A stretch of 26,083 bases of DNA. It comes from a virus. The notes below the pieces were generated by a model. It was not told where the DNA came from. It saw only the letters and a list, made by a program, of their open reading frames with translations, and did no database searches. The stretch lies in IMG/VR virus record IMGVR_UViG_3300032805_000104, positions 1-26,083 of that record; one strand, written 5' to 3'. A program made the position numbers and the translations under genes. Each line of letters begins with the position of its first letter. The first letter of the stretch is position 1. This document shows positions 949-26,083 of this stretch, piece by piece.

Positions 949-951
949 GCG

Positions 952-1311: not shown

Positions 1312-1318
1312 CTGTAAC

Positions 1319-1382: not shown

Positions 1383-1733
1383 ATGAGCAGACTGATTGCG
1401 CTGAGATTGCCTGACGATCTGGCGGCAAGGTTAGATACTCGCTGCTCGATTCGGGGGCAGTCCAAGACGGATGTGCTGATTGAGGCTATCCAGCGCGGAT
1501 GGGAAGAGGCGGCAATCAAGCCGATCCAAGCGCGGCCCGCAATCAAGCCGATCGACATCCCAGGCGTATTCATGGGCTCGCAGCTTGGAATCCCATTAGT
1601 CGGCGAGGCTGAGTTGGTAGAACGCCCGATGTGCTCCTATACTGAATACGATGGTCAGACAGGCGAGACTTACCGATGCGCGCTCACGGCGCATGGACCC
1701 AAAGTGAAGCATGTGCGCGGGACAAAGGTGTGA
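1383..1733 (+). CDS. RHH (CopG-like) regulator with C-terminal Cys/His module
   Basis: 116 residues. Residues 1-44 are a clear CopG/Arc-type ribbon-helix-helix: strand RLIALRLP, helix A DDLAARLDTR, helix B SKTDVLIEAIQRGWEEA. A linker holds a duplicated nine-residue unit (AIKPIQARP, AIKPIDIPG). The C-terminal 35 residues carry C-x14-C-x4-H-x5-H, which could bind zinc, though no standard finger is recognised. AGGAG (1370-1374) lies eight bases before the ATG. Four GTTATAC boxes fill the upstream gap, so the protein probably binds its own promoter. It sits between the terminase subunits, where it could tune packaging or late gene expression. The DNA-binding call is fairly secure; target and purpose are inferred. 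Confidence 0.75.
   Translation: MSRLIALRLPDDLAARLDTRCSIRGQSKTDVLIEAIQRGWEEAAIKPIQARPAIKPIDIPGVFMGSQLGIPLVGEAELVERPMCSYTEYDGQTGETYRCALTAHGPKVKHVRGTKV
1512..1553 (+). repeat. 27-bp spaced direct repeat inside the RHH gene linker
   Basis: GCAATCAAGCCGATC occurs at 1512-1526 and 1539-1553, a 27-bp (nine-codon) period, producing the AIKPI duplication in the linker. In frame; likely a recent slippage duplication. Confidence 0.75.
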
Positions 1734-1757
1734 TCAGCATTTAATCTGCAGGCCGAA

Positions 1758-3512: not shown

Positions 3513-3829
3513 CGATTCTGGCTCTTTCATTAGCGGTTCTTGCTTTATTGATCGATGCATGGCAGCACAGAAAAAGCGCTCGAATCTCTCTCGAATCTCT
3601 ACAAGCGGAAAGAGCGCTTCGCGTCCGCACCGAAAATCTCTACAACGTGGCTATTTCCGAGCGCGACGAACTTCTCCGACAGAAGCAATTGTTGACGCAA
3701 ACCTCTCCTCGGGCGCAAGATACTCCGGGACGCACCTTCAGGGGTTCTGAGCTTCGCCGCTTGAATGAGCGGTACAATTCCGAGATGTTGGAGGCCGAGA
3801 GACCGGCCGGAATGGAGAATCATGGCTGA
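3500..3829 (+). CDS. Small membrane-anchored coiled-coil protein, unknown
   Basis: 109 residues. Residues 4-19 (VTILALSLAVLALLID) form one hydrophobic helix with no cleavage site, followed by a charged, heptad-like stretch to about residue 68 and a polar tail. The plan is N-in anchor plus coiled coil, also seen in i-spanins and various small phage membrane proteins, but there is no holin or endolysin nearby to support a lysis role. AGGAG (3489-3493) is seven bases before the ATG. It overlaps the large terminase by 13 bases and the next gene by 8, so translation is probably coupled. Confidence 0.7.
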   Translation: MGEVTILALSLAVLALLIDAWQHRKSARISLESLQAERALRVRTENLYNVAISERDELLRQKQLLTQTSPRAQDTPGRTFRGSELRRLNERYNSEMLEAERPAGMENHG

Positions 3830-4292
3830 CAAGATGAAAGGCATGGGCGGCTTGAGTAAGCTGGGAGGCAGCGAGATGGAGCGCAAGCCGAAGCCTGAGA
3901 GCATGAGCAAGGGAAAAGACGATGTGAGCGGCGAGCCGGACGAAACCGGAACCAAGACGCACACCATCGAAGAACACCCTGACGGGCATCTGGAAACGCA
4001 CATGCACGACGGCACAGCTGAGACGCATCCCGACCATCTGCACATGCTGGCGCATATCGGGCATCACCTGACCGGCGGTGACAAGCATCACGTCGCACAT
4101 CATGACGGCATGGCGATCCATACGCATGGGATCCACGAGTCGGGCGAGCATGACGGGCCGCACGAGCACAACACGGCGGAAGAGGCCAAGGAATCTCTCG
4201 GCAAGTTCTTCGACGAGGAAGCGCAGGAACCTGCGCATCAGGGCGGCGAAGGGGCTGAAGCTATGCCTGCGTATGGGGGAATGGGAGCGTAG
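3822..4292 (+). CDS. Histidine-rich phage protein, function unknown
   Basis: 156 residues from ATG 3822, which is preceded by GGAG at six-base spacing; an upstream ATG at 3765 lies inside the previous gene and would add an arginine- and proline-rich head unlike the rest. Twenty-two histidines, 21 of them between residues 47 and 116, occur mostly as H-x-H, HH or H-x-x-x-H, mixed with Asp/Glu and Gly. The head is Met/Lys/Gly-rich and the tail acidic. Comparable His-rich small proteins occur near terminase and portal genes of other podoviruses, with no settled role. Metal binding is plausible from composition. It is low in hydrophobic residues and probably largely disordered. Confidence 0.75.
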   Translation: MADKMKGMGGLSKLGGSEMERKPKPESMSKGKDDVSGEPDETGTKTHTIEEHPDGHLETHMHDGTAETHPDHLHMLAHIGHHLTGGDKHHVAHHDGMAIHTHGIHESGEHDGPHEHNTAEEAKESLGKFFDEEAQEPAHQGGEGAEAMPAYGGMGA

Positions 4293-4467: not shown

Positions 4468-5364
4468 ATGGCAATCTCACGTTTTGCAGGAATTTACAGC
4501 GCCTCCGACTTCGCCTACGGCATCAACACGCAGGTTCCACCCCTGCAAGTCATCGCAGGTCCGAACGCCGCGGGTTCCGGCACTCTCACGCTCGCATTCG
4601 CCAGTGTTGCATTGGCCGATGGGACGGTCATCAGTCCCCTGGCAACAACAACGCCTGTGCTGGTCGGCGCGGACTCCAACATGGAGACGCAGACACCGAG
4701 CGCAGTATCGGTGTCAACGCCGCTGGTTTACGGCTCACCAACCATCACCTACACCAACTGGACCTACCAGCATGGTAACGGCGATCAGGTCCGCTCTGGA
4801 ACCGTAGGTCTTCAGGAAGCAATCAACTATGCAGCGTTGAAGGGTGGCGGGTCGGTAGTTGTCGATGCCGTCTGGACAGCTCTCGGCGGCACGACCGCGA
4901 TGCTTCAGGCTGCTACGTGGTCCGGTGGAGTCTCGCTGATCGATAACCGTTACGGTTCGAGTCCACAGCGCACTCAAGTTGTTCTGACCAATGCGCAGAT
5001 TCTGACACTGAGCTCGACGCCTGTGCAGTTGCTCCCCGCGCCTGGAGCCGGTTACTTCTACAACATCCTCAAGGCCACGCTAGTCAACGAATGCACCGGA
5101 ACAGCTTATACCGCCGGCGGTGCGATCACGATCGGCTATGGCGCCGCGGTTACCACCCAAGCTCTGAGCGGAACCATTGCCAGCACGTTCCTTGACAGCC
5201 AGACTACGGTCCAGGTGATTCAACTCGCCGGCGCCAATCTGGGCTCAACAACCGAAGCTCTTTATGATAATCAGCCGATTGCCATCAACTGCGCCTCGGC
5301 TAACTTCGCAACCGGAACCGGAACGCTCCGCGTGAGCCTGACCTATACACTAGAGGCGAAGTAA
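4468..5364 (+). CDS. Virion structural protein candidate, function unknown
   Basis: 298 residues, dominated by Thr, Ala, Gly, Ser and Val, with alternating beta pattern throughout. No signal peptide or membrane helix. The N-terminal third is a low-complexity beta region; the middle holds a turn-rich segment ending SLIDNRYG; the C-terminal third (from about residue 170) has a VVLTNAQILTLSSTPVQLLP opening followed by APGAGYFYNI, a style I associate with phage head or fibre beta-sandwich proteins. Its own leader and strong AAGGAG site suggest high output, consistent with a decoration or head-fibre subunit. The next gene begins at the base after its stop. The specific role is not established. Confidence 0.6.
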   Translation: MAISRFAGIYSASDFAYGINTQVPPLQVIAGPNAAGSGTLTLAFASVALADGTVISPLATTTPVLVGADSNMETQTPSAVSVSTPLVYGSPTITYTNWTYQHGNGDQVRSGTVGLQEAINYAALKGGGSVVVDAVWTALGGTTAMLQAATWSGGVSLIDNRYGSSPQRTQVVLTNAQILTLSSTPVQLLPAPGAGYFYNILKATLVNECTGTAYTAGGAITIGYGAAVTTQALSGTIASTFLDSQTTVQVIQLAGANLGSTTEALYDNQPIAINCASANFATGTGTLRVSLTYTLEAK

Positions 5365-6057
5365 ATGATCCCCGGATTGGTGGTCGGAATTCCTTCCAGC
5401 GGACGCCCAGTAGACATACGCTGGGCATTCTCCTTGCAATCGATGGGAATCAATACCCCCGTAGGGTCTTTCACGACATGGATCATCGAAATAGGTCCGG
5501 ATCGGGCCGGAAACCGGGAAACGCTGGCAGAGAAAGCGCTCGAAGCGAATGCCCGGTATCTCTTCATGGTGGATGACGATACGGTTTGCCCAAACTATAC
5601 GCTGCGCCATTTGACCTACGAGATTGAAAAAGATCCCAAGATCATGGTGGCGGGCGGGATTTACTGCACGAAAGAGGCGCAACCCAGGCCTTTGGTATTT
5701 AAGCGAATCGGAGACGGTTCATTCTGGAATTGGAAGGTAGGAGACGTCTTCGACTGTGAAGGAATGGGAACAGGCTGCATGTTACTCAAGACGGAAGTAT
5801 TCAAATCACTTCCTAAGCCGTGGTTCTTTGAGCCGGACGAAGCGCCGGTAGGAGAATCGGTGACTCTCGGCAACGAGATTGTTCCGATTCAGCGCCGGAG
5901 CGGCACCGATGATCTCTATTTTTGTAAGAAGGTCATCGACGCAGGATTCAGAATCGTCGCGCACGGCGGCGTGCTGTGTGCTCACATAGGCCAAAACGGC
6001 ATCGTGTATGGAATGCCGGAAGACAGTTATCCATTCAAAAAGGATGAGGCAGCATAG
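5365..6057 (+). CDS. GT-A-like family 2-type glycosyltransferase
   Basis: 230 residues, a single compact GT-A-like domain. It opens with a first strand (GLVVGIPSSGRP) and carries the metal/nucleotide-sugar motif VDDDT (D70-D72), the acceptor-side segment GMGTGCMLLK (133-142), a late acidic pair TDDLYF (D182, D183) and H207 near the end, all expected positions for an inverting family 2-type enzyme. There is no membrane helix, so it would act in the cytoplasm, on a virion protein, a host glycan precursor or DNA bases. The ATG directly follows the previous stop, suggesting coupled production with that virion-type protein, which could therefore be its substrate (inference). Family call firm; donor and acceptor unknown. 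Confidence 0.8.
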   Translation: MIPGLVVGIPSSGRPVDIRWAFSLQSMGINTPVGSFTTWIIEIGPDRAGNRETLAEKALEANARYLFMVDDDTVCPNYTLRHLTYEIEKDPKIMVAGGIYCTKEAQPRPLVFKRIGDGSFWNWKVGDVFDCEGMGTGCMLLKTEVFKSLPKPWFFEPDEAPVGESVTLGNEIVPIQRRSGTDDLYFCKKVIDAGFRIVAHGGVLCAHIGQNGIVYGMPEDSYPFKKDEAA

Positions 6058-6248
6058 TGCCGAGCGTAAGCAAAGCTGAGCAAAAGGCCATGCAGATCGC
6101 TGAACATGCCCCCGGGAAGCTCTACAAGCGCAATCGGGGACTGCTCAAGATGTCGCATGAGCAACTGCACGACTTTGCTTCAGGCCCGGAAGAAGGCAAA
6201 CCGGAACACGTCAGGCAATCGGGCAAGCTGTACAGGAGACGATCATGA
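6057..6248 (+). CDS. DUF3008-like small phage protein
   Basis: 63 residues starting at GTG 6057, whose first base is the last base of the preceding stop (TAGTG). The pattern MPSVSKAEQKAMQIAEHAPG, later LKMSHEQLHDFA, resembles the small DUF3008-type proteins (MP-x-x-S-K-x-Q-x-x-x-M, then a Ser-x-x-x-x-x-DFA motif). The function of that family is unknown. It is basic, helical and lacks cysteines. It is the first of five tiny overlapping genes leading to the portal gene. Confidence 0.65.
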   Translation: MPSVSKAEQKAMQIAEHAPGKLYKRNRGLLKMSHEQLHDFASGPEEGKPEHVRQSGKLYRRRS

Positions 6249-6580
6249 TCTTTGATGGAAGTCCTCGACCCACGGCAGCCATGCGGCGCGAATATCCACT
6301 TTGCCGGGTGCATCGCTACATCTCGCGCTCTGCGGCGGGAAAAGCCTATTACGACGTGCGCACCGGCCGCGATGCGTTCTTTCCTGACCCCAATGGCTCG
6401 CCCGATGAGTGCTACTTTGCGGGGGAGGAAATACGGCCGCAGTTGCCGGTGGTCGAAGCGGTCGAACCGCCTGCGGTTGCAGAGCCCAAACCTGAACAGC
6501 CAGCAGAAATGGAGGCCAGCGATGGCGGGGAAGTTGTACAAGCCGAAGACCAAAACGGTGAATCTGGGGAACAAAGGTAG
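6245..6580 (+). CDS. Small protein with acidic Pro/Glu-rich tail, unknown
   Basis: 111 residues. ATG 6245 overlaps the upstream stop as ATGA. The first 65 residues look folded (RRE, YPLCRVHRYISR, AYYDVRTGR, DECYFAGEE), while residues 66-111 are Pro/Glu/Ala-rich and acidic, probably disordered. The next gene starts within its last 59 bases in another frame. No family is recognised. Smooth overlaps at both ends support it as real. Confidence 0.6.
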   Translation: MIFDGSPRPTAAMRREYPLCRVHRYISRSAAGKAYYDVRTGRDAFFPDPNGSPDECYFAGEEIRPQLPVVEAVEPPAVAEPKPEQPAEMEASDGGEVVQAEDQNGESGEQR

Positions 6581-6728
6581 CTTTACCGAGCATCCTGGCG
6601 CCTTACATCGCGCTCTGGGCGTTCCCGAGGGTGAGAAGATTCCCGAATCGAAGCTGGCCGGCCATCACAGCGGACGGTTGGGCAGAATGATAGCCTCAGC
6701 CAAAGGCTTCAAGGCGATGCACCATTGA
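6522..6728 (+). CDS. Small conserved-type phage protein (ALHRALGVPEGEKIP)
   Basis: 68 residues from ATG 6522, with GGAGG (6511-6515) six bases upstream. This frame is open further upstream, from 6252, but that part reads as an arginine-rich shadow of the overlapping gene. The core GALHRALGVPEGEKIPESKL and the ending MIASAKGFKAMHH match a small, basic protein type found widely in phages next to structural genes, usually of unknown function. The stop overlaps the next start as TTGA. Confidence 0.75.
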   Translation: MAGKLYKPKTKTVNLGNKGSFTEHPGALHRALGVPEGEKIPESKLAGHHSGRLGRMIASAKGFKAMHH

Positions 6729-7018
6729 GCGATACTGTGATTGACGAAAAGAAAGCCGCGCAGGAGAAGCTCGAGTTCATGCAGCGCGAATATTGGCGCG
6801 TGAACAACGGCAAGCAGCGCTATTTGCGCTGCCCCTACTGCGTCACGTCGATCGGCAATACCAAGCTCATGCACCGCAATTTCGTCAACTGTCCGCAATT
6901 CTGCTGCCCCACGTTCGCGCGTGCGCTGAAAGCGATTCTCGACAGGCAGGATGAGGTAGACAAAGCCGCACAGGCGGCGCGCAATATCGTCAGGATTATG
7001 AAAGCTGTGGAGAACTGA
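6725..7018 (+). CDS. Small zinc-ribbon-like protein
   Basis: 97 residues starting at TTG 6725, which overlaps the previous stop (TTGA); the next in-frame ATG is 18 codons on. A cysteine set C36-P-Y-C39 and C56-P-Q-F-C60-C61 around H50 suggests one structural zinc site. The flanks are charged helices. Two further Cys-rich proteins (7018-7293 and 13261-14094) are nearby, but no sequence relation is evident. Function unknown. Confidence 0.65.
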   Translation: MSDTVIDEKKAAQEKLEFMQREYWRVNNGKQRYLRCPYCVTSIGNTKLMHRNFVNCPQFCCPTFARALKAILDRQDEVDKAAQAARNIVRIMKAVEN

Positions 7019-7293
7019 TGACTAAACTTCCATCCAATCTATCTCTCTATGATTTTGGAGGCCCAACCGCTTTCCCGCAATACGGAGCCGTTGAGTTACC
7101 CGCTTTCGGAGGACGATTTGAGTATCTTCCCGGTGAAATAAATGCGTGGAGTGCTTTCCTGCGAAGCGGTGCCGATCATGCCGCGCTTTTTACATGTAGA
7201 CGTGGACACGTCCTCGAATCGCCTATAGACCTTACTCAAGAGCAGATTGATGCACGGTGCATACGTTGCGCTGAAAGGCATAATGGCAACTAG
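7018..7293 (+). CDS. Small Cys/His protein, possible zinc ribbon
   Basis: 91 residues. The ATG overlaps the upstream stop as TGATG. The N-terminal half is Gly/Pro/aromatic-rich; the C-terminal half has C60-R-R-G-H64 and C81-I-R-C84, a CxxxH-CxxC set that could hold zinc. It overlaps the portal start by 11 bases, so it probably couples portal translation. No family is recognised. Confidence 0.6.
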   Translation: MTKLPSNLSLYDFGGPTAFPQYGAVELPAFGGRFEYLPGEINAWSAFLRSGADHAALFTCRRGHVLESPIDLTQEQIDARCIRCAERHNGN

Positions 7294-9721
7294 CACGCTA
7301 CCACCTCTCGTTAACCAGGACCAGCCGGAAACCGGCGGCGCACCTGTCATTCAGCAGCCAAATCCTGCAGAACCGCCCTCATTCGGCAAGAACAATCGCC
7401 ATCTTCCGGAACTGCTTCAGGATGTATTGAAACAGTTGATTGAGGAGTTTCAAAAGCTCGAACTCTACGACCGCAATGTGGAGGGGTTGATCGATCGCGG
7501 CTTGCGCTTCTACGACGATGGAGTGCAGCATTTCTATCCCAATTATGGGACGGGGGTTTACCAGATCGGGTCGGCTGGCGCGACGATCAACCTGGGTGAC
7601 GGGCAAAGCCTTGAATGCAGCGAGTTCATGGGCGCGTACAACATCTTCCGCGCCCGCCGCCGTACTATCGACGCCGTACTGACACAGAATCCTCCGGGCA
7701 TCGATTTCCAGCCCGATCATCCCGACCGAAGCGAGGACATCGAAGCCGCTGAAACTGCGGAAGGCTACCGGCATCTGTTCGATCAGAAGAACGATATTCC
7801 CGACCTGCAGCAGGCGATTACGCGCTATTTCGAGTTGTCGGGCCGTGTTGTGGCTTGGACCCACACTGCTACCAATCGACAAAAGTGGGGCATGAACGAT
7901 GCGGGCGAGCCGCGCCAGATGGAGACGACAGAGATATTCGGCACACTGGAATCGAAGGTGCCTATTCTTTGCCGCAGCCAGGACGACGCGATTTACTGTT
8001 TCCTGTTCAAAGACCCCAATATCCTCATGGCGCGCGCCAATAACCCATGGCTGCAGGAAGAGAATGGCACTTGGAAGATCGCGGGCGGCGAAGGCGCGCC
8101 GGGCGAATCGGACTGGACGCGCTACATGCGTCTTGGCGTGCGTCAGGCGGCCAAAGGTGCATATGTCATCAGCGCCGCGACCGCGCATCTGGTGACGGAG
8201 ATGCATGGTTTTTTGCGGCCCCAGGCGTTTACGCACCAGACCTGCGAAGAGGCTTATACCGGGCCATCGGGCTGGGATGATGAAGCGGAAGAGTTCGTTA
8301 TGGGCTCATGGCCGACTAACGAAGACAGCTCACCTGCAACTATCCGCGACGTTCTGAATGCGCTTTATCCCGAAGGCGTGCATATTGTTTACATCGGCAA
8401 AACTTACTCGGAATCGATGCCGGAATCGATGGACGATGCGATTGACATCGTGATGAGCGAGAAACGAGATTCGCTGACCGGCGGCGCATTGATGGAGCCG
8501 ATGAAGGTGATTCAGGACGGCTTCAACGATTTCAAGAATGCCGAGCGGGAGTTCTACGAAAAAGGCTGGCCGATGACGTATTTCCGCGGCGACAAGGAAG
8601 ATTACGACGCCATCGTGGACCAACAAGCGCGGCCGGCGCAATTTCTTCTGGTCAAGAATCCCACTGTGCCACCCGATGAGCCTTTAGAGAATGCGTTCTA
8701 CCGCGATCCCGACATGCAGGCGCCTGAATCCTTCGTCGATTGCATGGAAGAATACCGCACTGCACTTTCTCAGGACATCACGGGTGCTTCGCCGGCACTA
8801 CAGGGAGTAGCGGGTCCACACGACCAGACCGCAACTGAACGCGCGATGGACAAAGCGCAATCGATGGGCATTCTTGGGCCAACTTGGTCGCGTCTGCAAC
8901 TGGTTTTCGCGGGAATCTATAAGAAAGCGGCGCTCGCCGCTTCGAAGAATCCCGACCACGCCAGGGAAATTGTAGTCACGACAGGCGATAAGCAGACGGT
9001 CACAATTCGCCTCGAAAAGCTTACACGCGGCTCGTTTCATTGCAAACCCGATGCTGATTCGACTTTCCCCGAGTCAACCGCCTCCAAACGGGCGACGATG
9101 GAAAAGCTGTTGCCCGGATTGGCAACGTCGCCTATCGGTGCCGAGTTCTTCAATTCGCCCGACAACTGGGAAGAGGTTCTATCGCTCAACGGATTTCCCG
9201 AACTCACGCTCACGCCGGCGCTGGCCTATAAGAAGCAGACGCGCGAGCTTGAGATTCTGCTCCGCGAAGCTCCCATTCCGAACCAGCAGGCAGTGGATGC
9301 TTATAACGTCCAGCACGCGCAACAGACGCTTGAGGCGGCCGGTGCCGGATTGCCTGCACCGCCTTATGCGCCCCCGCCTCCAGAATTGCCTTCCGTGATG
9401 CCGCGCAAGCGTGATTATCACAAATGGGAACTGGCGAAGTGCCAGGAATATCTCTCAAGTGAAGATTGCTGGCGGCAAGAAGTCGAAGGCAATGCAGCCG
9501 GGATTCGCAATGTCGAGCTGCACGCCGATGCGCATGAGATGTTTTTGCAGCAGCAGATGGCGGCACAGGCCGCTCAACAGGCGAAACCGCCTAGTGAATC
9601 GATCAACTTTAAGGATGAAAGCCCTGCCGGTCAGGCCGCGATGAATAAACAGGCAGGCATCGCAGCCCTCGGCAATCAACAATCCAGCGCCCAACCTCCC
9701 GGCGCCAAACCCACGCAATAG
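7283..9721 (+). CDS. Portal protein (podovirus type)
   Basis: About 812 residues, forming the dodecameric DNA channel at the head vertex. ATG 7283 (MATSTLPPLV) has GAAAGG four bases upstream and lies within the end of the previous gene; an ATG 36 bases further upstream lacks such support. Typical portal traits: a helical N-terminal region after a Pro-rich head, a central mixed domain, and the helical signature SQDITGASPALQGVAG (about residues 496-511) followed by QTATERAMDKAQSMG, which matches portal stem/clip regions where TG-x-S and TAT recur. The C-terminus is long, Gln/Ala/Pro-rich and suited to a barrel or disordered tail. It sits directly before the scaffold-like gene. Confidence 0.85.
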   Translation: MATSTLPPLVNQDQPETGGAPVIQQPNPAEPPSFGKNNRHLPELLQDVLKQLIEEFQKLELYDRNVEGLIDRGLRFYDDGVQHFYPNYGTGVYQIGSAGATINLGDGQSLECSEFMGAYNIFRARRRTIDAVLTQNPPGIDFQPDHPDRSEDIEAAETAEGYRHLFDQKNDIPDLQQAITRYFELSGRVVAWTHTATNRQKWGMNDAGEPRQMETTEIFGTLESKVPILCRSQDDAIYCFLFKDPNILMARANNPWLQEENGTWKIAGGEGAPGESDWTRYMRLGVRQAAKGAYVISAATAHLVTEMHGFLRPQAFTHQTCEEAYTGPSGWDDEAEEFVMGSWPTNEDSSPATIRDVLNALYPEGVHIVYIGKTYSESMPESMDDAIDIVMSEKRDSLTGGALMEPMKVIQDGFNDFKNAEREFYEKGWPMTYFRGDKEDYDAIVDQQARPAQFLLVKNPTVPPDEPLENAFYRDPDMQAPESFVDCMEEYRTALSQDITGASPALQGVAGPHDQTATERAMDKAQSMGILGPTWSRLQLVFAGIYKKAALAASKNPDHAREIVVTTGDKQTVTIRLEKLTRGSFHCKPDADSTFPESTASKRATMEKLLPGLATSPIGAEFFNSPDNWEEVLSLNGFPELTLTPALAYKKQTRELEILLREAPIPNQQAVDAYNVQHAQQTLEAAGAGLPAPPYAPPPPELPSVMPRKRDYHKWELAKCQEYLSSEDCWRQEVEGNAAGIRNVELHADAHEMFLQQQMAAQAAQQAKPPSESINFKDESPAGQAAMNKQAGIAALGNQQSSAQPPGAKPTQ

Positions 9722-15349: not shown

Positions 15350-18300
15350 GTGGCGTTCAATCCTTCCGGCGCGGTTGGCGTGCCTCTTACTGTGCTGGGC
15401 GGGTGGGTCACCGAGATGGCTCCAACCGCCCTGCCGGAAGGAGTGTCCCCTGATAACCAGGAATTGATGTACCTGCCGGGAAGCGCCTATTCCCGGGGTG
15501 GGTTCGAGAAAGTCTTTGAAAATCCGTTTCCAAGCGGAGGGCCTAACAATCTTAGTCCTACGGTTGTTTATGGCAAAAGCTTCGTTACTTCAAGCGGCGT
15601 CATCAAAAACCTTTATTTTGACTCGAACGGCGTGATGTGGGTTGAGGATTGGTCGAACTCTCCTGGAACTTATACCAAGCTATTTCAATCTACACCGGGA
15701 AGTTTCTGCAAATCAGTTACCGCGTTTGGGCGTGAATGGATCGCTATCTCTGATGGTCTTCATGGCTCCGATATTTCCTATCAATGGGACGGAACCAATC
15801 TCCAGAGAGTCACGCAGGACGGTCCTGGGGTTTGTGCACAGGTTTCAAGTCTCGCTCCAGCCCCTCAAGACCTTATTGGAACCGCAGTTGGCTTGAGCGC
15901 AACAATCGCAACTGCGACTTATGCAGACCCTCAGTTTTTGAACGGTCACTTGATCGGCTATCTGAGTATTGAGTACACTGTGACGACTCCAGAAGCATTC
16001 ACTGAAGGCATGATCGTCAGCGTTTCTGGAAATAGCTATGCTCCATTTAATGTAGTGTCAGTTCGAATCACGCAGATTATCTCAAGCACGCAATTCAAAA
16101 TTGCAAATATCGCTTTTAGTTTGACTCCGGCTACAGGTACCGGCGGAACAGCAACACAAAATATCTATTCCCTTACAAGGGCTGGAAATCTAGTCACCGG
16201 AAACACCGTCGCATCCACCGGAGTTCAGGTTGGAAACCAGATTCAGATTTCAGGGGTTTCTGCTACTCCCATTGGTGGAGGAATCGTTTCGATTGTCATT
16301 GAAAATGACAGCCTTCCTGGATTGGCCACAGTGACGACAACCGATCCTCACGGCCTCGGGCCTAATCAGGATGTCACGATCACTGGTGTGACCCCTGAGA
16401 CTATTGGAAGTGCCGCTGGATGGACGGGAATTAGGCAGGGAGATGTGGTCACGCTGGTTAATGGCGGTGGGGCGCATGGGCTAGTTCCTGGAGCAGTAGT
16501 GCAAGTATCTGGCGCTACTCCAGCTTCGTTTAATACTTCGGTGACGGTTGCTCTGGTCCCGGCTCCGGATCAGATTGTTTATGAGCAAGTCGATGCCGAC
16601 GCAACTGCGACCGGGGTGACTGTTTCTCTTGCGTGGCCTGTTCCGGACAATACGCCGACTCCGACCTATTTTGAAGTTGTCACTGCCCCAACGCCTACGA
16701 CTTTCACGGTTCAAGTTACTTACAGCGATGGAACATGGACAAGCGGTGCTGTCAGTTTCGCATGGAACGGAACATTTTACGTGAATTCGATCAACGCTCA
16801 AACTTTTACATATACACAATATGGACCCGACGCGACCTCAACTGACGTCGGATCGGCAATCGTATATGGTCAATGCTCTCCTGGACTTCACTTGATGCAG
16901 ACTCTTTTTTTGCTTCAAGATGGAACGATCACCGCGCCGAGCCCTCCGGTTAGTTTTATTGCCAACGGAGGGCAGCTCGTCAACGTGAGCAATATCCCTA
17001 CAGGACCATCCGACGTGAAAGCCCGTATTTTGGCATTCACGGGTGCGCAACCAAACGTTCCCGGTCTTCTTCCGCCTTTCTTCTATCTTCCGGTTCCAGC
17101 GCAGCTCGAGGGCCAGATTGTCTCGACAGCTACGCAGATCAACGACAACACAACGATGGGCGCGATTCTTGACTTTTCAGACAATTCCCTTTTCGCTGCG
17201 ATCGGCATCAGCATTACCGGCAACAATCTTGCAGACCAAATCAAGATCGATGGGGCCTTGGGATTCGGATATTGGGAATCAAGATTGACAACATGGGGCC
17301 AGAGGAACGCGATTCAAAACTTCATCAACATGGGGTTTGGTGGAGGAACGACTATCGGAGCTGTGGCGCCGGCCGGCTGGACGCTTCCCGCAAGCTCAGT
17401 TCACGGTTCGTTGAGCCTGAATGTCTGGGATGGAACGTGGACAATTGCCGCTCAGTCAACAGATATAGTGGGAACCTCAGGACTCATCCAGCAAAGTGCC
17501 TATCTGGACCCTTATGGTGATCCGATTCTTGATCCCCTTACGACATACAAAGTCCGGTTCAAAGTAGCTTCCGTGACCGGAATAGCCGCGAATATTTCAA
17601 TCATCTTTTTCCTCACCGATGGAACGTTTACCACGACGGCAACAGTTCCGGGCTCAAACATCACAACATGGCAAGCTACTAATGGGGGATATTTCGAGGC
17701 GACGTTCTTGGCAGCGACTCCCATTACGATTCAACCTACGCTGGAGTTTGGTTTATATGCCATAGCTTCAGCAGGAACGGTGACGGTGGCGCTTAAAGAG
17801 ATTTCGGTCATCGATGCCGAAGAGCCTTACCTCGATACCCAATCCTTTACCAGCTACACAAACAATCCCTCTGGCTTCGATGGCGTGAGCGGCAATATGC
17901 AGCCAACGGAGGATACACGTAAGATCATGGACTATTCCGTGATTCGCGGCTCGCTTTATTGCCACACTCAGGACCCTTCCGGACGCCTACATGAAATCAC
18001 TGTCGACCCGACTTCAGAGCCCGTGGGCTGGATCTGGCGCGAGGTTGCAGCCAACTGCGGTACGCTTTCAGCTTTCGGCGTGACGCACTCGCAAGCGGAT
18101 GACGAGTCTGTTTCAGGAGCGCAGGACTGGTGCGCGTGGCCGGCGGAATCGGGAGCCATGATCTTTGATGGGGGTGTTCCTGAAAAGATTTCACAGGAGA
18201 TTCAACCGAACTGGAACGCGCCGTATAGTTCCTTCCCTTGGGTCGCGGCGGGGAGCAGCATCAACATGGCTGCGGCGACTAATATTTCCGCGCTCAACGA

Positions 18301-19009
18301 TCCAGTTGAACGGATTCTCTATTTCTTTTTGCCTGTCGGCTCGGCTACTACGCCCAACCGCATCTATCCATTGAGCTATCGGGAACTCAATAGCGCTTAC
18401 GCGATCGCAGGTTCCCCACCCTTCCATCCTTCACTTGGCGGCAAACTGATTGCGACCGACAACACACGCAAGTGGACGCGCTGCATGCGAGCCATGAACG
18501 GGGCGGCGCGCATGTACCGCGACAACCTGGGGCAACTGACAACGGTGTTCTTTGGTGGCAATGGTCAAGCGCTCGGCGTCAGTGCCGGATATGGGAATAT
18601 CTACATCCTGAATCCGGCCAAACTGACCGACGACGATTACGGGCAAATTTCGCCCTACTACATCACAGCGCCATTTCTTGATCCCGAGAAAGCACAGGCC
18701 ATTGGACTCGCATTCGTGCGTCTACTCTGTGCCTATGCCAACATCTTCATCGCCGGGGTGGGAACGGTCACCTATACCTGTCTCTGTGATGCACTCACCA
18801 ACACATGGAATCTGACGACGACGCGCAATCTGTCCACGACGCCAACTTTTGACCAGGAATTTGCCGGCAACCAGGCGCAGGGCAACCGGATTTTCTTGAA
18901 GATCGCCAGCGCGCCTTTGACTGGACAAACCGACAATTCGTTCAATCTGCAGCGCGTACAACTATGGTTCAAGAAAGCTAAGTTGCAGATTCGTGGAGCA
19001 GCGGCATGA
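15350..19009 (+). CDS. Giant nozzle-like tail protein with inserted adhesive domains
   Basis: 1219 residues, starting at GTG 15350 behind GAGGTG. The N-terminus (GVSPDNQELMYLPGSAYSRG, residues 31-50) fits the opening of podovirus tail-nozzle (T7 gp12-type) proteins, in which a Pro/Gly loop precedes an S-R-G/R-P-G turn and beta-propeller-like repeats. Residues about 205-495 are three or more beta modules with a recurring HGL-x-x-G-x-x-V-x-x-(S/T)G core. Residues about 655-825 resemble a carbohydrate-binding jelly roll (PAGWTLP start, TYKVRFKVAS, LEFGLYAIASAGT, final EISVID). Residues 850-1219 return to propeller-like sequence (tail tube or nozzle). T7 gp12 is near 800 residues, so this one carries roughly 400 extra. 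Role: DNA exit and probably glycan contact. Confidence 0.7.
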   Translation: MAFNPSGAVGVPLTVLGGWVTEMAPTALPEGVSPDNQELMYLPGSAYSRGGFEKVFENPFPSGGPNNLSPTVVYGKSFVTSSGVIKNLYFDSNGVMWVEDWSNSPGTYTKLFQSTPGSFCKSVTAFGREWIAISDGLHGSDISYQWDGTNLQRVTQDGPGVCAQVSSLAPAPQDLIGTAVGLSATIATATYADPQFLNGHLIGYLSIEYTVTTPEAFTEGMIVSVSGNSYAPFNVVSVRITQIISSTQFKIANIAFSLTPATGTGGTATQNIYSLTRAGNLVTGNTVASTGVQVGNQIQISGVSATPIGGGIVSIVIENDSLPGLATVTTTDPHGLGPNQDVTITGVTPETIGSAAGWTGIRQGDVVTLVNGGGAHGLVPGAVVQVSGATPASFNTSVTVALVPAPDQIVYEQVDADATATGVTVSLAWPVPDNTPTPTYFEVVTAPTPTTFTVQVTYSDGTWTSGAVSFAWNGTFYVNSINAQTFTYTQYGPDATSTDVGSAIVYGQCSPGLHLMQTLFLLQDGTITAPSPPVSFIANGGQLVNVSNIPTGPSDVKARILAFTGAQPNVPGLLPPFFYLPVPAQLEGQIVSTATQINDNTTMGAILDFSDNSLFAAIGISITGNNLADQIKIDGALGFGYWESRLTTWGQRNAIQNFINMGFGGGTTIGAVAPAGWTLPASSVHGSLSLNVWDGTWTIAAQSTDIVGTSGLIQQSAYLDPYGDPILDPLTTYKVRFKVASVTGIAANISIIFFLTDGTFTTTATVPGSNITTWQATNGGYFEATFLAATPITIQPTLEFGLYAIASAGTVTVALKEISVIDAEEPYLDTQSFTSYTNNPSGFDGVSGNMQPTEDTRKIMDYSVIRGSLYCHTQDPSGRLHEITVDPTSEPVGWIWREVAANCGTLSAFGVTHSQADDESVSGAQDWCAWPAESGAMIFDGGVPEKISQEIQPNWNAPYSSFPWVAAGSSINMAAATNISALNDPVERILYFFLPVGSATTPNRIYPLSYRELNSAYAIAGSPPFHPSLGGKLIATDNTRKWTRCMRAMNGAARMYRDNLGQLTTVFFGGNGQALGVSAGYGNIYILNPAKLTDDDYGQISPYYITAPFLDPEKAQAIGLAFVRLLCAYANIFIAGVGTVTYTCLCDALTNTWNLTTTRNLSTTPTFDQEFAGNQAQGNRIFLKIASAPLTGQTDNSFNLQRVQLWFKKAKLQIRGAAA
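15950..16850 (+). repeat. Low-GC block coding divergent beta modules in tail protein
   Basis: The segment encodes recurring modules (G-x-x-V-x-[VI]-[ST]G core, preceded in two of them by HGL). By hand count GC is 42-48% in 16081-16200 versus 67% in 18001-18060 of the same gene, with more A/T-ending codons. Edges are approximate. It suggests domain acquisition into a nozzle gene. Confidence 0.5.
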
Positions 19010-19578
19010 GTTTACAGGTGCGTAATCTCGACTGGTTACGGAGGCTTAAGGTGGACGGCGCGCCCGAAATCGGCGCGCGGTTGCATGAGATGGTGAACGA
19101 CCTGGTGCGCGGCGTCAACACGCTCGAATCGCAGACCAACGCCAATCTAGATGGCCAGCCGGCACCGCCACCCGCTATCCAGGGCGTGAATGTAGTCCCA
19201 CATCCACAGGGCGTCGATATATCGATTCAGCATGATGGCAATTTCTATGAAGGCCTCGGCTACTATGTCGATTACGCCGACAATCCCCATTTTCAGAACG
19301 CGCGCACACAGTTTATCGGGGATTCGCGCAACCACATTCTTCCAGTGGGTAACTGGGGCGGCTACTATCAGGTCCGCGCCAAGTATCCCACCGGAGTATC
19401 GACTGCGCCGGTAATCTTCGGCGGTCCTGTACCGCGTCTGGTGAAGGGAGGCTCTGTCTCGACGGTTTCCCTGTTGCCCACGCAGGGCGCAGGCACGACG
19501 CGCCGTGGCCAGCCTCCCGGTTTCGGCAGTTCCTTCCGTTCGGCCAATGGTGCTCCTCCTGTGCGAGGTACGCAATGA
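19006..19578 (+). CDS. Tail-associated protein with fibronectin-like domain
   Basis: 190 residues; ATG overlaps the upstream stop (ATGA). The N-terminal 50 residues are charged and helical (RLHEMVNDLVRGVNTLESQT), likely coiled coil. Residues about 52-143 follow a fibronectin type III-like beta pattern with VPHPQGVDISIQHDG and YYQVRAKYPTG; the tail is Gly/Ser/Pro/Arg-rich. A helical stalk plus an FN3-like head is typical of small tail adaptors. No enzyme motif. Confidence 0.6.
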   Translation: MSLQVRNLDWLRRLKVDGAPEIGARLHEMVNDLVRGVNTLESQTNANLDGQPAPPPAIQGVNVVPHPQGVDISIQHDGNFYEGLGYYVDYADNPHFQNARTQFIGDSRNHILPVGNWGGYYQVRAKYPTGVSTAPVIFGGPVPRLVKGGSVSTVSLLPTQGAGTTRRGQPPGFGSSFRSANGAPPVRGTQ

Positions 19579-19967
19579 AAGTTCGCGCCTTCGAGTCCAT
19601 AGATGAGACGGTTCTGCGAGAGTTGCACGAGCGTGGCGGCTACGGTTTTCCTTTCCCAGACAATATAGCAGATTATTTGATCGTAACGGATGATGCGAAC
19701 TGTCCGATTATGGCAGCAGGGGAGAAAATGGTTCCGGAAATCACGATGCTTTGTGCTTCAGGCGGCATGACACATCCGCTGGTGAAACTAGAGGCTTTGT
19801 CCTTGCTCCACGAGGCACTTAGAGATAGACTTGTGCGCAAGGGCTTCAAACAAGCATTTGTATTCCTTGCCCCTGGAGTGGAAAAAGCATTTGGGCGGCA
19901 CCTCCAGCGCCACTTTCGATGGAAACCTACTTGGAAAGGTTATGCCATTGAGGATTGGAGGCCCTGA
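19575..19967 (+). CDS. GNAT-fold small internal virion-type protein (T7 gp13-like)
   Basis: 130 residues, starting at ATGA overlapping the previous stop. It begins MKVRAFESID and ends with a FRWKPTWKGYAIEDW strand-turn-strand, with a long helix (EALSLLHEALRDRLVRKG, 73-90) and the strand QAFVFLAP between, the order of a GNAT acetyltransferase domain. The usual acetyl-CoA P-loop (R/Q-x-x-G-x-G/A) is not clear, so it may lack activity. T7-like phages have a small GNAT-like internal protein, gp13, next to the ejection proteins, and the position here matches. Identification by fold pattern and place only. Confidence 0.6.
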   Translation: MKVRAFESIDETVLRELHERGGYGFPFPDNIADYLIVTDDANCPIMAAGEKMVPEITMLCASGGMTHPLVKLEALSLLHEALRDRLVRKGFKQAFVFLAPGVEKAFGRHLQRHFRWKPTWKGYAIEDWRP

Positions 19968-20527: not shown

Positions 20528-21994
20528 ATGGCCCCCGCGACAAACCCGCTCCTCGATGAAATCAACGGCCTGAGTCCAGGCGCCAAGGCTGCACTGATGC
20601 AGGCGCACGCCTCTGTTCCCGCGCAAATGGCGCAACCCGCTAATCCTGTCCTCGCAGCCGCGCGTCAAGCCTCACCTACGGCGCCTGCGCCTCTGCTGAT
20701 GCCGTCGCCTTCGCAGCTGAGTTCGGTTCCGGCGATGGGATCGCAGCCGCCAGCGGTTTCAGGCCCGCGCGGACAGAAAGTCAACTTTATGCCCCAGGGC
20801 ACGACCGGCGGCGATGAGCAGGAACGTCAACGCCTGATGGCTACGGGTTCTGGCGTCGATCAGATCAAGCAGCCATTCTTGCATGGACTCGCAAAAACAG
20901 GGGATGTGCTTGGAAATGTTCTGTTACCGGGATTGGCTGCGCGCATTCCAGGGACGACGGCGCATCATAACGTGCTCATTGCGCAGAACGAGAAGCAGCT
21001 TGGCACCGATATTGGCAACCAGCAGAAGGAAGCGCAGACAGCTGAAATACAAGCCCGCGTTCCACTCGAACAGGCACAAACCAATGAACTCGAAGAGCGC
21101 TTACGCGAGATGCCGGGTGAAGCTGAGCAAAAGAGCCAATTGACGGATGCGCAGATCGTCGCACTCCTGCACCCGCAGGCAAAGACTGATTTTGAAGCCT
21201 GGAGGCAACAGAACCCCAATGCGCCGATTACCGATTGGCTGAAGGCACAGGCGGAAGCCAAACCTAAGAATATTCAGGCAAAAACGTTGCAGTTGCCGAA
21301 TGGCGAACAGATTCCGGGCAAGGTTGATTCACAGGGCAATCTCCTGCTCGCGGATGGCACGCCCGCACCACAAGGCACAAAGCTCTATCAGCAGCCGAAT
21401 TATGGACAGATGGTGTTGCCGACCAAGACTGCGACCTTTATCGGGGAAGATGGCATTCCGCGCGAATACCAATGGAATGAAGCAACGCAGACTTATGACA
21501 AGCCGTTAGGACTTAGTGCGTCGAATGCTTACGGGCATGAGGCCGCTCAAGCTGGCGCGGTTGATCGCGCGGCTTCGGGATTGATACAAGATATTGAGGC
21601 GCATAAAGACAAGCTCGGGAATCCTAAGGCCATTATCGAATCGGCAATTTTGAATACGCCGTGGGCCGATCCCGAAACAGCGCAACTTCGTGCCGAGATT
21701 GCAACTTTTGCGGCCTTACAACCCTCTATGCACGGGTTCCGCGGTCAGCAGGCGATGCAACAATTCGAGAAAATCCTTGGCGGTATTCCTAACAACCCAG
21801 AAGCATTGGTTGCCTCGATCAACGGAATTCGCAAAACGGCCGGTGCAATCAATCCTGGATTAGGCCAAGGTTCTACACCTACCGGTTTCCGCGTTCGTCT
21901 GAGCGATGCAATGGCGCTTCCGCAGAATAAGGGCAAATCGGAGGCCGACGTCCGGAAGGATGTTAAAGCGCACGGCGGAACGGTGGTGCAGTGA
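20528..21994 (+). CDS. Internal virion/ejection-type protein
   Basis: 488 residues, starting at the base after the previous stop (TAAATG) with AGGAGG about 10 bases upstream. It is Pro/Ala/Gln-rich to about 90, then holds a hydrophobic glycine-rich patch (GNVLLPGLAARIPG, 129-142), a charged coiled-coil stretch (about 148-205), beta-hairpin repeats (280-330) and a helical end. No lysozyme or transglycosylase motif is seen. The stop overlaps the next ATG (TGATG). Ejection role inferred from position and composition. Confidence 0.55.
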   Translation: MAPATNPLLDEINGLSPGAKAALMQAHASVPAQMAQPANPVLAAARQASPTAPAPLLMPSPSQLSSVPAMGSQPPAVSGPRGQKVNFMPQGTTGGDEQERQRLMATGSGVDQIKQPFLHGLAKTGDVLGNVLLPGLAARIPGTTAHHNVLIAQNEKQLGTDIGNQQKEAQTAEIQARVPLEQAQTNELEERLREMPGEAEQKSQLTDAQIVALLHPQAKTDFEAWRQQNPNAPITDWLKAQAEAKPKNIQAKTLQLPNGEQIPGKVDSQGNLLLADGTPAPQGTKLYQQPNYGQMVLPTKTATFIGEDGIPREYQWNEATQTYDKPLGLSASNAYGHEAAQAGAVDRAASGLIQDIEAHKDKLGNPKAIIESAILNTPWADPETAQLRAEIATFAALQPSMHGFRGQQAMQQFEKILGGIPNNPEALVASINGIRKTAGAINPGLGQGSTPTGFRVRLSDAMALPQNKGKSEADVRKDVKAHGGTVVQ

Positions 21995-23643
21995 TGGCGA
22001 CGAATCCCTATGCTGCAATCGCGCTGAAAGATGAAAACAATCCTTATAAAGCGATTGCGATTCCTTCTGCGCAACAGGGCGAAGCCATTCCCGGAACTTC
22101 AGATCCCGGAATGGGGAATGCTGTGGCGACGACGGCTAAAGCCGCTGGGAAATTGGGCAGCGATGTCCTTCAAGGCGTCGGTGAGGGCACGATTGGTTTG
22201 ATGTCCACCGGAGACCAATGGGCCCGGCAACATCTTCCCGCTTTTTTCACAAATCGCTGGTTAGGTTTCGGCGCTCCGGCAAATGAAAAGCATATAGAGC
22301 AGCTTGCCACTCCTGAAAACACAACACAGGCCGTTGCTAAGGGGGGGGAAAAGGCAGCCGAATTCATGATTCCTGGAGGAGCGGAAGAAAGGGCCATTTC
22401 TCTCGCTCCTAAAGCGATCCGTCCGATTGCTCGTATGGCTACATCTGTACTTTCTTCCGGTTTGGTGAACAAAGCGCAGGGAGGCGGATTTGGCACAGGC
22501 GCGCTGGCGGGAGGTACGGGTGCGGCGATTGGTGAAGGATTACGGGCAGCGGCTCCGCGACTCGCAGAAGCAGCTCTGCACATCGGGCATGCACAGCGTG
22601 CTTTTAACAAGACACCAGGTGCGGCTGCCCTGGAACTCACGCGCGGCGTGCGCCCTGAAAGCGTGCTATCGAGTGGGCGGGAAAGCATGGGTGGATTGAT
22701 GAATGCGCTCGAAGGGCAGGTAAACGCAGCTAGTGTGCGGCCGACTCCGCGCATCGCAGGATTTCTGCAACCGCCGCGCGAGACAGTTGAGCTTGCGCCG
22801 ATTCCGGGCCGCGAACCTGCATCTTCTCCAATGGCCTTCCCAGCGGCATCGGATCGAGGAACACCGCGCATCTACAATCAAACGCAGTACCACAGCGGCG
22901 GCGCGCATCCCGAGCTAAGCGGACGTATAGAGCAACCGCAAGGAAACATGACGCGCACTCCGCAAATGAGCGCATCGATACCGCCGACAAGCGAACCTAA
23001 TCCTGTAGCTTCTCTCCGCCCTGCGCGCGAGCTGATCGCCAATGCACAAGGCAAAGCGGCACGCGAGGAAGCGGGAACGCTGCATGGGCAACTTGGAGAA
23101 ATGGGAAATTTCCTCCATCGCGGACGTGTATCCGGCGAAGAGATTCCTGAGAACGTGACACCGCGCCGTCTCCTTGATCTAAAACGGGGATTTAGCGACG
23201 AACACTTGCGCTGGAACCCGAACGTTCACCAAGAGGCGATGCATACAGGTCGGGGCGCTTATGGCGCATTGGATCGCGAACTGGATCGGCTTGTGCCAGG
23301 CGCCGCACCAATAAACCAGAAGATTTCGAGTCTTATAGAGGTTCTGCATAATGCCGAACGGGAATCGCGCATGGCTGGACCCGGACAAAGGATGCTCGGA
23401 AGGTTCGGAGCCCACACAGGCGCTTTGACAGGTGCAGGAATCGGCGGCGCGCTTGGGTATCGAGAGGGCGGAACTCCGGGAGCAATCGGCGGCATGGCGC
23501 TTGGCGTGGCTGCTCCTGAATTGTTGGCATCACCCGAAGGCCAAATGGCGCTTGCCCGCACTTTTAACCGCGCCGGCACGTTGCGCCCTGCTGTCGGCGG
23601 ATTGCTTGCCGCATCTCGTGTGAGGAAAGAGGGACAACAGTGA
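21994..23643 (+). CDS. Large Gly/Ala-rich internal virion or ejection-type protein
   Basis: 549 residues from ATG 21994 (TGATG overlap; a GTG one codon earlier is possible). Two Gly/Ala-rich stretches, residues about 164-205 and 465-510 (for example GALTGAGIGGALGYREGG), look like glycine-zipper membrane-insertion segments, with polar helical domains between. An opening duplicated pattern NPYAAIAL / NPYKAIAI is present. Ejection proteins that form a trans-envelope channel often carry such segments. The coding strand has an unbroken run of eight G at 22341-22348. The stop overlaps the next start (GTGA). Confidence 0.55.
   Translation: MATNPYAAIALKDENNPYKAIAIPSAQQGEAIPGTSDPGMGNAVATTAKAAGKLGSDVLQGVGEGTIGLMSTGDQWARQHLPAFFTNRWLGFGAPANEKHIEQLATPENTTQAVAKGGEKAAEFMIPGGAEERAISLAPKAIRPIARMATSVLSSGLVNKAQGGGFGTGALAGGTGAAIGEGLRAAAPRLAEAALHIGHAQRAFNKTPGAAALELTRGVRPESVLSSGRESMGGLMNALEGQVNAASVRPTPRIAGFLQPPRETVELAPIPGREPASSPMAFPAASDRGTPRIYNQTQYHSGGAHPELSGRIEQPQGNMTRTPQMSASIPPTSEPNPVASLRPARELIANAQGKAAREEAGTLHGQLGEMGNFLHRGRVSGEEIPENVTPRRLLDLKRGFSDEHLRWNPNVHQEAMHTGRGAYGALDRELDRLVPGAAPINQKISSLIEVLHNAERESRMAGPGQRMLGRFGAHTGALTGAGIGGALGYREGGTPGAIGGMALGVAAPELLASPEGQMALARTFNRAGTLRPAVGGLLAASRVRKEGQQ
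22341..22348 (+). other. Run of eight G in coding sequence
   Basis: GGGGGGGG within codons AAG-GGG-GGG-GAA of the preceding ejection-type gene. The frame stays open across it, so the run is in frame as given. It is a mutation-prone tract; a one-base change would truncate the C-terminal three quarters of the product. Confidence 0.9.
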
Positions 23644-26083
23644 TTTTACTTATAGCGGCTCTACTGATGTTGTTGCGTGTTTTCTATTCTGCCGCCGAGA
23701 TGTATTTCGAGCGCGACTTGCCGCGATGCACATGGCGAGGATTGCTGCTCTCGATGGCGATCTTCGGACTGTGCTGCTCAGTGTTCGGCCAAGAGGTTCG
23801 CGTGGATATTCCAGTGCAGACCAGCGGGCCGATTGTACCGGTAACGGGCGGTCCATTGCCGCAGGCTCTCTGGGTTGCAAATGCGAAGGTAGCGCTCTGC
23901 ACGCACCCGCAAGCGAGCCTGAGTGCATGCCAGGCGAATCCGCTGCCTACATTCACCGATTCAACAGGTGCTATTTCCTGCAATGCGTCAACGCCGCTGG
24001 TGCAGTTGCCCGGCACGACCTGCACGGCCTCTCCGGGTACAACTGCGAATATCGGCTTCTGGTACGCGGGAGGCTTGTTCGATTACTACGTGACCAGCAG
24101 TTATGGAACTTATGGACCATTCACCGGCAATCTTGGCGTAACTGGAACTCCCATCGCGCCCAGCAGCGTGAATGTCAACGTACCAGGCATTTGGACCAAC
24201 ACACAGGCTAATGAATATCTCTACTCGACGCTGAACGGATGCAATCCCGGCACCGAGTTCCAGGCTACACAGAATAGCAACTTCATGACTGAAGGCATTT
24301 CGGGCTGCGTAGCTGTTCCCTCGGCGGCTACTTCATGGCAGCAGAACGGAATCGCGGGATATGCCGTGACATCTGCCGGCCCATCTAATCCGAGCTTGGG
24401 ACCTAACGCGGTGAGCGTCTATGGGCAGGCGCGGGGGCTTGTCACAAATGCCCACATTTGGGGCTTGAACATTGTCACGCAGGATCTAGTTGGAACCTCG
24501 CAGCGTATGGTGGGATTCGAGGATGACATCAATGTGGCTGGCACCCCTACTTACGTGAGTGGATTCCAGATCACCGGAAACGGAACTGGTACCCTTCCGC
24601 CTGGCGCGTCTGCGATCGAGGTTGAAAAGATTGCATCGAATTCGTGGGGAGAGGCTATCGCGACAGACGACGGAGCGGCGGGTACCGGATTAGTACTGGG
24701 CGCACAAGGTCTCACCGCCAATTCAAATTCTCAACTGATTGTTTTCACCAATAGGGATAGTGGCAACACGCCACATCAAGCATCTTTTTTTGTCGATCCT
24801 GCGGGGGTTCTCCATTACAACCCAGCGGCAGCGCAGAGTACCGCCGGTTTCGACACGAACAATATCTTGCTGACCGGCGCTCCTACCGGCAGCGTTGCCA
24901 TGGCGGATGGCACAGGGGCTAAATTCACATCGACGTCTGTACTATTCAAGCAACTTAATCCCTCTACGCCGGTTCTCGGTAAGGGAGGAAGCTACGGAGG
25001 ATGGACAGCAAATGCATTTGCTGCGCCTGGATTCACGAGCGACGGTACTCAGTTTGTGTTGACTGTGAGCCTTTGGAGTGTTGCCAACAGCAAATGGGCC
25101 ACTGCATTTTTTACTTCTCCGCTGACTGGATCGAATGCTCTCACTCAATGGACTTACGTTACCAACTCTTTGCAGACTCCGCAGGGAAGCGACTACATCA
25201 TCGGCAATGGTGACGTGAAGCATTGGGGGAGCCAATACTACTGGACCTATGATCACTATCCATCTGGTAGTTTAGGGAGCACACCTCTTTCAATCGCGAC
25301 GAGCAGCAATCTCACTTCCTGGTCAGTACTTTCAGGTGGCACGACTCCATCCGGTGCTTATGTTGATCCTGCTTTAGCGATCAACCCGAACGGCAATTTA
25401 GAGCTTTATGCGATGGATTCTAGCCGCGCGGGAGTGTGGCTCTGGACGACGACTAACGGAACGTCATGGAGCGGACCTACTGAGATTTTTACATTTCCAA
25501 GCTACTGTTCATTTTGCGGCGAACCATCGGTTTTCTATATTGGGACCGCAAGGTACCTTACTTTCGATAACTCTCCCAGCCCGCTCGCTACGAATGCCCG
25601 TTTTACGCAGATGGTTGTGAGCCCCGCTCAAAACACTACCTGGTATAATCTTGGGGACGTGAACCTTCCGCAGTCTGCATACTCGTGGCAAAGTGTTGAG
25701 GTATTCGATGCCGCTGAGATCGTCGCCGATACCGGAGACGGGTTGGGAAATATCCCCCGGATGCTGTTTGCGGGCGGAGATAATAACAGTACAACCGACA
25801 ACACGGATAGTTCGATCGGATATGCAATTAAACAGTCTTTGAGTGATGCCACTTTCTCGGGTCTCGGCTGCTATCCGGTGACATTCAGCGTTGGATCGAA
25901 TATCTACGGTGCCGACACATCGTTCTGCTGGAATCCAGCCACGCAAACGCTGACACCTAGCGCTGGATCAATCGCCCCATATTTCACGGTGGCTATCGGT
26001 GGAACAAACGAGGGAACATTATCTAGCGGAGGCGCTCAGACAGCGACGCTGGCGGGCAATGCGTATTACAGTAGTCCAAATTG
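23640..26083 (+). CDS. Tailspike-like protein, signal-like start, GH43-like propeller; 3' cut
   Basis: Open from GTG 23640 to the right edge, 814 codons, no stop. Start: GTG overlaps the previous stop (GTGA), with AGAGGG about six bases upstream. Residues 2-16 and 34-50 are hydrophobic; the second ends LCCSVFG before QEVRVDIP, like a signal-peptidase cut. Residues 73-162 form a Cys-rich, transthyretin-like beta domain with the DYYVTSSYGTYGPF end. Residues 445-740 look like a five-bladed propeller, each blade rich in aromatic strands; the acidic points NGD (D525), VDPAL (D576) and GEPSVFY (E628) match GH43/GH32-type placing. Likely a host-glycan-binding or glycan-cutting spike. An exported, membrane-linked tail part is odd. 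Domain calls are by pattern. Confidence 0.75.
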   Translation, partial: MILLIAALLMLLRVFYSAAEMYFERDLPRCTWRGLLLSMAIFGLCCSVFGQEVRVDIPVQTSGPIVPVTGGPLPQALWVANAKVALCTHPQASLSACQANPLPTFTDSTGAISCNASTPLVQLPGTTCTASPGTTANIGFWYAGGLFDYYVTSSYGTYGPFTGNLGVTGTPIAPSSVNVNVPGIWTNTQANEYLYSTLNGCNPGTEFQATQNSNFMTEGISGCVAVPSAATSWQQNGIAGYAVTSAGPSNPSLGPNAVSVYGQARGLVTNAHIWGLNIVTQDLVGTSQRMVGFEDDINVAGTPTYVSGFQITGNGTGTLPPGASAIEVEKIASNSWGEAIATDDGAAGTGLVLGAQGLTANSNSQLIVFTNRDSGNTPHQASFFVDPAGVLHYNPAAAQSTAGFDTNNILLTGAPTGSVAMADGTGAKFTSTSVLFKQLNPSTPVLGKGGSYGGWTANAFAAPGFTSDGTQFVLTVSLWSVANSKWATAFFTSPLTGSNALTQWTYVTNSLQTPQGSDYIIGNGDVKHWGSQYYWTYDHYPSGSLGSTPLSIATSSNLTSWSVLSGGTTPSGAYVDPALAINPNGNLELYAMDSSRAGVWLWTTTNGTSWSGPTEIFTFPSYCSFCGEPSVFYIGTARYLTFDNSPSPLATNARFTQMVVSPAQNTTWYNLGDVNLPQSAYSWQSVEVFDAAEIVADTGDGLGNIPRMLFAGGDNNSTTDNTDSSIGYAIKQSLSDATFSGLGCYPVTFSVGSNIYGADTSFCWNPATQTLTPSAGSIAPYFTVAIGGTNEGTLSSGGAQTATLAGNAYYSSPN

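Follow-up and report, generated by a model that had tools for sequence, protein, structure and literature searches.

Gene Organization of the Window and the Focal ORF

The window analyzed here is the entire IMG/VR record (26,083 bases), a contig that is itself a fragment. Its gene order is podovirus-like: small and large terminase subunits, portal, and major head protein (PHROG matches) are followed by tail and ejection-type genes (assigned by position), with the focal ORF last. A large tail gene (g15350; 15350..19009, + strand) is nozzle-like by position, is conserved at 37–63% in relatives, and has no signal peptide, and the gene immediately upstream of the focal ORF (g21991; 21991..23643, + strand) is an ejection-type gene that is the positional counterpart of Sf6 gp13. 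A tblastn search of 50,697 phage records found no match to the portal or head protein, and the window phage is therefore placed in an uncultured group. It is probably a lytic, podovirus-like soil phage.

The focal ORF (23640..26083, + strand) directly follows the last ejection-type gene and thus occupies the tail-spike slot. Its GTG start overlaps the stop codon of the upstream gene (GTGA) and is preceded at a distance of 6 nt by a Shine-Dalgarno-like AGAGGG (23628..23633, + strand), which was picked by reading the sequence, an automatic scorer having chosen another run. As described in the first-pass annotation, the frame is open to the contig edge, running for 814 codons from GTG 23640 without a stop; the C-terminus is incomplete because the contig is cut, and a homologous N-terminus is present at the matching place in related phages.

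The predicted product is a tailspike-like secretory preprotein. Residues 1–31 (23640..23732, + strand) comprise a first hydrophobic helix and a basic loop (ERDLPR) that are found in a subset of homologs, and residues 32–50 (23733..23789, + strand) correspond to the n-, h-, and c-regions of a signal peptide with a predicted signal peptidase I (SPase I) cut between G50 and Q51. A conserved four-Cys β domain (C87, C97, C114, and C128) spans residues 51–165 (23790..24134, + strand). It is followed by a low-confidence, fibre-like region without relatives (residues 166–429; 24135..24926, + strand) and by a repetitive β region that is possibly a propeller (residues 430–760; 24927..25919, + strand).

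Predicted Signal Peptides in the Tail-Spike Slot

Signal peptides were assigned using a home-made rule (basic n-region, hydrophobic core, and small residues at −3 and −1), which was positive for three of four well-known E. coli signal peptides and for none of 10 Sf6 structural proteins. By this rule the focal ORF has the features of a Sec/SPase I substrate, with the cleavage region ending in CCSVFG before Q51. The two hydrophobic N-terminal segments reported earlier are borne out by AlphaFold helices at residues 2–23 and 32–48, the second of which is the rule-based signal peptide. The lipobox L-x-[AGS]-C is absent from the cleavage site, where L and C, not A, G, or S, precede the Cys residues.

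The export signal extends beyond the window to a whole group of related phages, a wider distribution than the first-pass annotation had seen. The first large ORF after the g21991-type gene has a signal peptide in 17 of 17 phages (window included), compared with about 1 of 204 core virion ORFs under the same rule; a Fisher test gives p of about 2e-24, a value that is indicative only, since it counts related genomes as if they were independent. The 17 phages include two that are near-identical in the fibre-slot region (G398 and G404), and in G400 (locus L011) a 130-aa ORF without a signal peptide precedes the first large ORF. This test is fairer than one based on the 35 fibre-slot proteins, since these were hand-listed. 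Tandem fibre genes downstream of the first spike also bear signal peptides, and many of the phages have two to four such spike or fibre genes in a row.

Relatives were found via tail and head genes and then via the N-terminal domain itself; the whole-domain alignment was too diverse for a scan of the collection, and two sub-alignments were used instead. An HMM of residues 52–164 identified about 20 distinct proteins of uncultured phages, all of which, where assessable, have a hydrophobic stretch and an SPase I-like site just before the motif (A)xRxD (a 146-aa fragment, the N-terminus of which could not be judged, was exempt from this tally). In most homologs the N-terminus is simply a short, ordinary signal peptide, for example MKRIAILTLLILSAITVFG ahead of a mature start at QAVRVD. 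Six distinct sequences, the window's included, have a two-helix form in which an extra first helix and an ERDWPR-like loop precede the signal peptide. Although the part ahead of it varies in length, the cleavage site lies at a near-constant distance from the mature domain. In the two-helix form, cleavage would leave a hairpin peptide of roughly 50 aa in the membrane (23640–23789).

Across the six two-helix sequences, pN/pS was 0.44 for residues 2–31, 0.49 for residues 32–50, and 0.58 for residues 51–164. Purifying selection on residues 1–50 (0.44–0.49) implies that the long start is used and that these residues are translated; translation beginning only after residue 50, which the first-pass annotation had named as the finding that would overturn a secretory start, is at odds with this constraint. 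Taken together, the conserved signal peptides, the selection on residues 1–50, and the near-constant spacing between cleavage site and domain make export of the spikes a well-supported prediction, and export would be the economical reading of the N-terminus. High Cys content was considered as proof of export and rejected, as fibre-slot proteins have 2.26 Cys/100 aa vs. 2.09 in the cytoplasm-made Sf6 gp14.

A signal peptide also appears in the family of g4468 (4468..5364, + strand), a gene between the large terminase and the portal: it is absent in nine phages (window included) and present in two (G402 and G403). In G402 it lies directly before the position where the signal-less relatives begin, and in G403 the protein carries, besides the signal peptide, a long additional insertion at the N-terminus. 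In this family, the signal peptide has been gained or lost between close relatives.

N-Terminal Domain and Exchangeable C-Termini

The Cys-rich character of the N-terminal domain is well founded: the four Cys residues lie within residues 51–165, with C97, C114, and C128 invariant and C87 nearly so across 20 sequences. The transthyretin-like label given to it earlier found no counterpart, either as a Pfam match at E ≤ 10 or among the VIA rows shown. In the AlphaFold model of the focal protein, residues 75–165 form a confident β domain and nearly all else is unmodelled. VIA comparison of this domain returned tail and spike entries of Pan3, Pam1, Sf6, and P22 at Z 4.0–5.5, values that fall inside the range of unrelated folds (flavivirus Ig-like domains score similarly). 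At the level of fold, the modelled domain may weakly resemble podophage spike head-binding domains, which is suggestive only; sequence homology to P22-type head-binding domains was rejected (hhalign probability below 1%).

The five-bladed GH43-like propeller proposed previously for the C-terminal part could not be substantiated, there being no Pfam or usable PDB match, no relatives, and a pLDDT of 37 when the possible propeller was folded alone in AlphaFold. The sole blade-like stretch modelled with confidence comprises residues 574–619 (25359–25496, + strand; AlphaFold model and VIA), which resemble blades of lectins and sialidases. PDB and Pfam sequence searches with the focal protein were empty or gave chance matches, and Foldseek found nothing below E 0.001 in the PDB; against viral models it gave a weak match to an S74-chaperone phage protein (4.9e-4), followed by a phage pectate lyase (2.6e-3). 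The C-terminus has no relatives in IMG/VR, INPHARED, or 396 genomes of the host phylum, in searches that reach close relatives only.

Among the related phages the C-termini are swapped: they include a pectate-lyase β-helix (with PHROG matches to tail-spike and EPS-depolymerase families), a BNR_2 propeller, and others without matches. A conserved N-terminal domain joined to an exchangeable C-terminus is the arrangement expected of a tailspike. At four loci (L005, L008, L034, and L044), two spikes with this N-terminal domain adjoin one another and have different C-termini, which suggests tandem receptor-binding arrays.

Comparison With Tunturi Phages and Other Known Systems

Consecutive fibre or spike genes with signal peptides, as in the window phage, were also identified in the cultured Tunturiibacter phages Tunturi 1 and 2 (PP887698 and PP885685), podophages of Acidobacteriaceae, although neither their core genes nor the N-terminal domain have detectable homology to those of the window phage. 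In Tunturi 2 the rule predicts signal peptides on gp12, gp13, gp14, gp16, and gp17, with gp12 expected to mature at QTAAYP; gp12 is identical and gp14 99% identical between the two phages. The paper describing the isolates makes no mention of signal peptides (PMC11924767). In a Tunturi-like IMG/VR contig, whose head protein shares 74% identity with its Tunturi 2 counterpart, the tail gene is followed by three consecutive signal-peptide genes, one of which has two hydrophobic N-terminal segments. Tunturi 3, which shares the host strain Tunturiibacter psychrotolerans X5P2 with Tunturi 1 and 2, has tail-fibre genes without signal peptides; thus, the trait tracks phage lineage and not host alone. 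A generalization to all Acidobacteriota phages was rejected, as the tail genes of Tunturi 3 and 4 are without signal peptides. Judged by predicted signal peptides, the trait occurs in lineages without detectable core-gene homology, and cultured phages are available for testing it, with (Tunturi 1 and 2) and without (Tunturi 3) the trait on the same host strain. An Acidobacteriaceae host is likely for the window phage (moderate confidence), based on one MAG contig, one chromosomal homolog, and the Tunturi parallel.

Tailspikes of the P22/Sf6 type occupy the same slot as the focal ORF (Sf6 gp14 follows the injection gene gp13) and likewise combine a small N-terminal β domain with an exchangeable, enzyme-like C-terminus. 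Unlike the window family, the P22-type spikes that were tested lack a signal peptide, contain zero or one Cys in the N-terminal domain, and gave no profile match. Other systems share single features. Bdellovibrio MAT fibre proteins are encoded and used by the predatory bacterium rather than by a phage. Pantoea WceF is an exported enzyme with a tailspike β-helix fold and a Tat signal (PMC7949094), but its gene belongs to a bacterial EPS locus rather than to a phage. Among late phage proteins, endolysins with Sec or SAR signals are exported by host Sec (PMC6116005); these are lysis enzymes and not receptor-binding proteins. Searches of the open-access literature turned up no account of Sec signal peptides on tail fibres, and two depolymerase papers state that no signal peptide was predicted in theirs (PMC13097943; PMC12004950).

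Proposed Export and Late Attachment of the Spikes

To our knowledge, tailed-phage assembly is taught as entirely cytoplasmic, with spikes thought to assemble inside the cell. If receptor-binding proteins are consistently secretory preproteins, then either the cytoplasm is not where virions are completed, or the phages run a depolymerase secretome.

The explanation that we favor, with a probability of about 0.55, is that the receptor-binding spikes leave the cytoplasm by the Sec route, mature in the periplasm, and become attached to virions at or after lysis. The focal ORF would encode the first receptor-binding tailspike of the phage as a Sec preprotein, which residues 1–50 would direct to the inner membrane; SPase I would cut after G50, so that the mature spike starts with QEVRVD. 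The mature four-Cys β domain probably docks to the tail, the exchangeable C-terminal part probably binds or cleaves glycan, and the periplasm would be the site of disulfide formation. Until lysis, spikes and virions would occupy separate compartments, and because of this separation the spikes would attach during or after it. Finished P22 particles can acquire their spikes in vitro, which makes late attachment plausible. We infer the actual export and cleavage, the disulfides, docking, and late assembly, and also the host. That these are receptor-binding proteins of the virion we likewise infer, because their slot, modularity, and N-terminal domain are tailspike-like and the closed genomes offer no other large fibre-like gene (none was noticed in the end-repeat contigs G398, G403, and G408).

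Exported, late-attached spikes are favored by the contrast between 17/17 first spikes and 1/204 core ORFs, the selection on the N-terminus, the position of the four-Cys domain after the cleavage site, the Tunturi arrays, and the presence or absence of the signal in g4468. Against them stand the tandem downstream fibres, which mostly lack the N-terminal domain, and Tunturi 3, which infects the same host strain as Tunturi 1 and 2 although its tail-fibre genes lack signal peptides. The broader proposition, that at least two Acidobacteriaceae-infecting lineages finish their virions with Sec-secreted, disulfide-matured spikes, such that the last step of tail assembly takes place outside the cytoplasm at lysis, we consider an even bet.

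The main rival, which we regard as rather unlikely, is that the proteins are secreted glycan depolymerases that act outside the virion, loosening the capsule or matrix that surrounds infected cells, which would help progeny to spread. Signal peptides combined with enzyme-like C-termini would suit this role, and WceF is a known exported enzyme of tailspike fold with a Tat signal (PMC7949094). However, the genes fill the tail-spike slot, the closed genomes would be left with no obvious receptor-binding protein, and the N-terminal domain loosely resembles virion-docking domains.

It is less probable that the hydrophobic N-terminus stays uncleaved and serves to anchor the virion spike, perhaps by inserting into a membrane. 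In favor of an anchor, a subset of homologs that includes the window conserves the extra first helix, and a gene of the Tunturi-like contig (L106) has two hydrophobic N-terminal segments; but in most homologs the signal peptide is plain and short, and its SPase I-type site keeps a fixed spacing from the mature domain, the window form has such a site after its second helix, and the G402 g4468 signal is placed just where signal-less relatives start. The membrane-anchored spike put forward in the first-pass annotation is accordingly disfavored.

The same annotation had raised a lysogenic surface enzyme and a decoy against superinfection. The former fits poorly with the distribution of integration genes: a tyrosine integrase (PF00589) was found in 1 of 13 relatives, the distant G406, and a serine recombinase (PF00239) in none of the 13. 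T5 blocks its own receptor with an exported lipoprotein, and export would likewise set a receptor-binding module beside the receptor in the cell's own envelope, barring later phages or progeny, but a decoy is very improbable here, because the scarcity of integrases leaves no lysogen to protect and because these large, modular, enzyme-like proteins, several per genome and encoded among virion genes in the tail-fibre slot, are unlike small blocking proteins and fit the phage's own spikes better.

G406 (L081–L083), the most divergent relative and the sole one with a tyrosine integrase (two matches), may mark a temperate branch.

Chromosomal Homolog and Accessory Genes

A chromosomal contig of the phylum Acidobacteriota (L052; genome G282, contig C28) encodes a signal-peptide protein with the same N-terminal domain (766–4179, + strand) and a 1115-aa signal-peptide protein with a PHROG tail fibre match of 3e-42 (5411–8755, − strand), with Rhs-like and transposase-like genes among the upstream neighbors. 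The pair may represent a prophage remnant or a domesticated fibre.

In the window, a glycosyltransferase-like gene between terminase and portal (5365–6057; phrog_1574, 6.7e-8; phrog_34859, glycosyltransferase, 0.0026) is possibly involved in surface modification. The window phage and most of its relatives also have a small acetyltransferase-like gene (19575–19967; GNAT, recognized by eye) within the tail module, and Tunturi 2 and 3 too have an annotated acetyltransferase among their structural genes.
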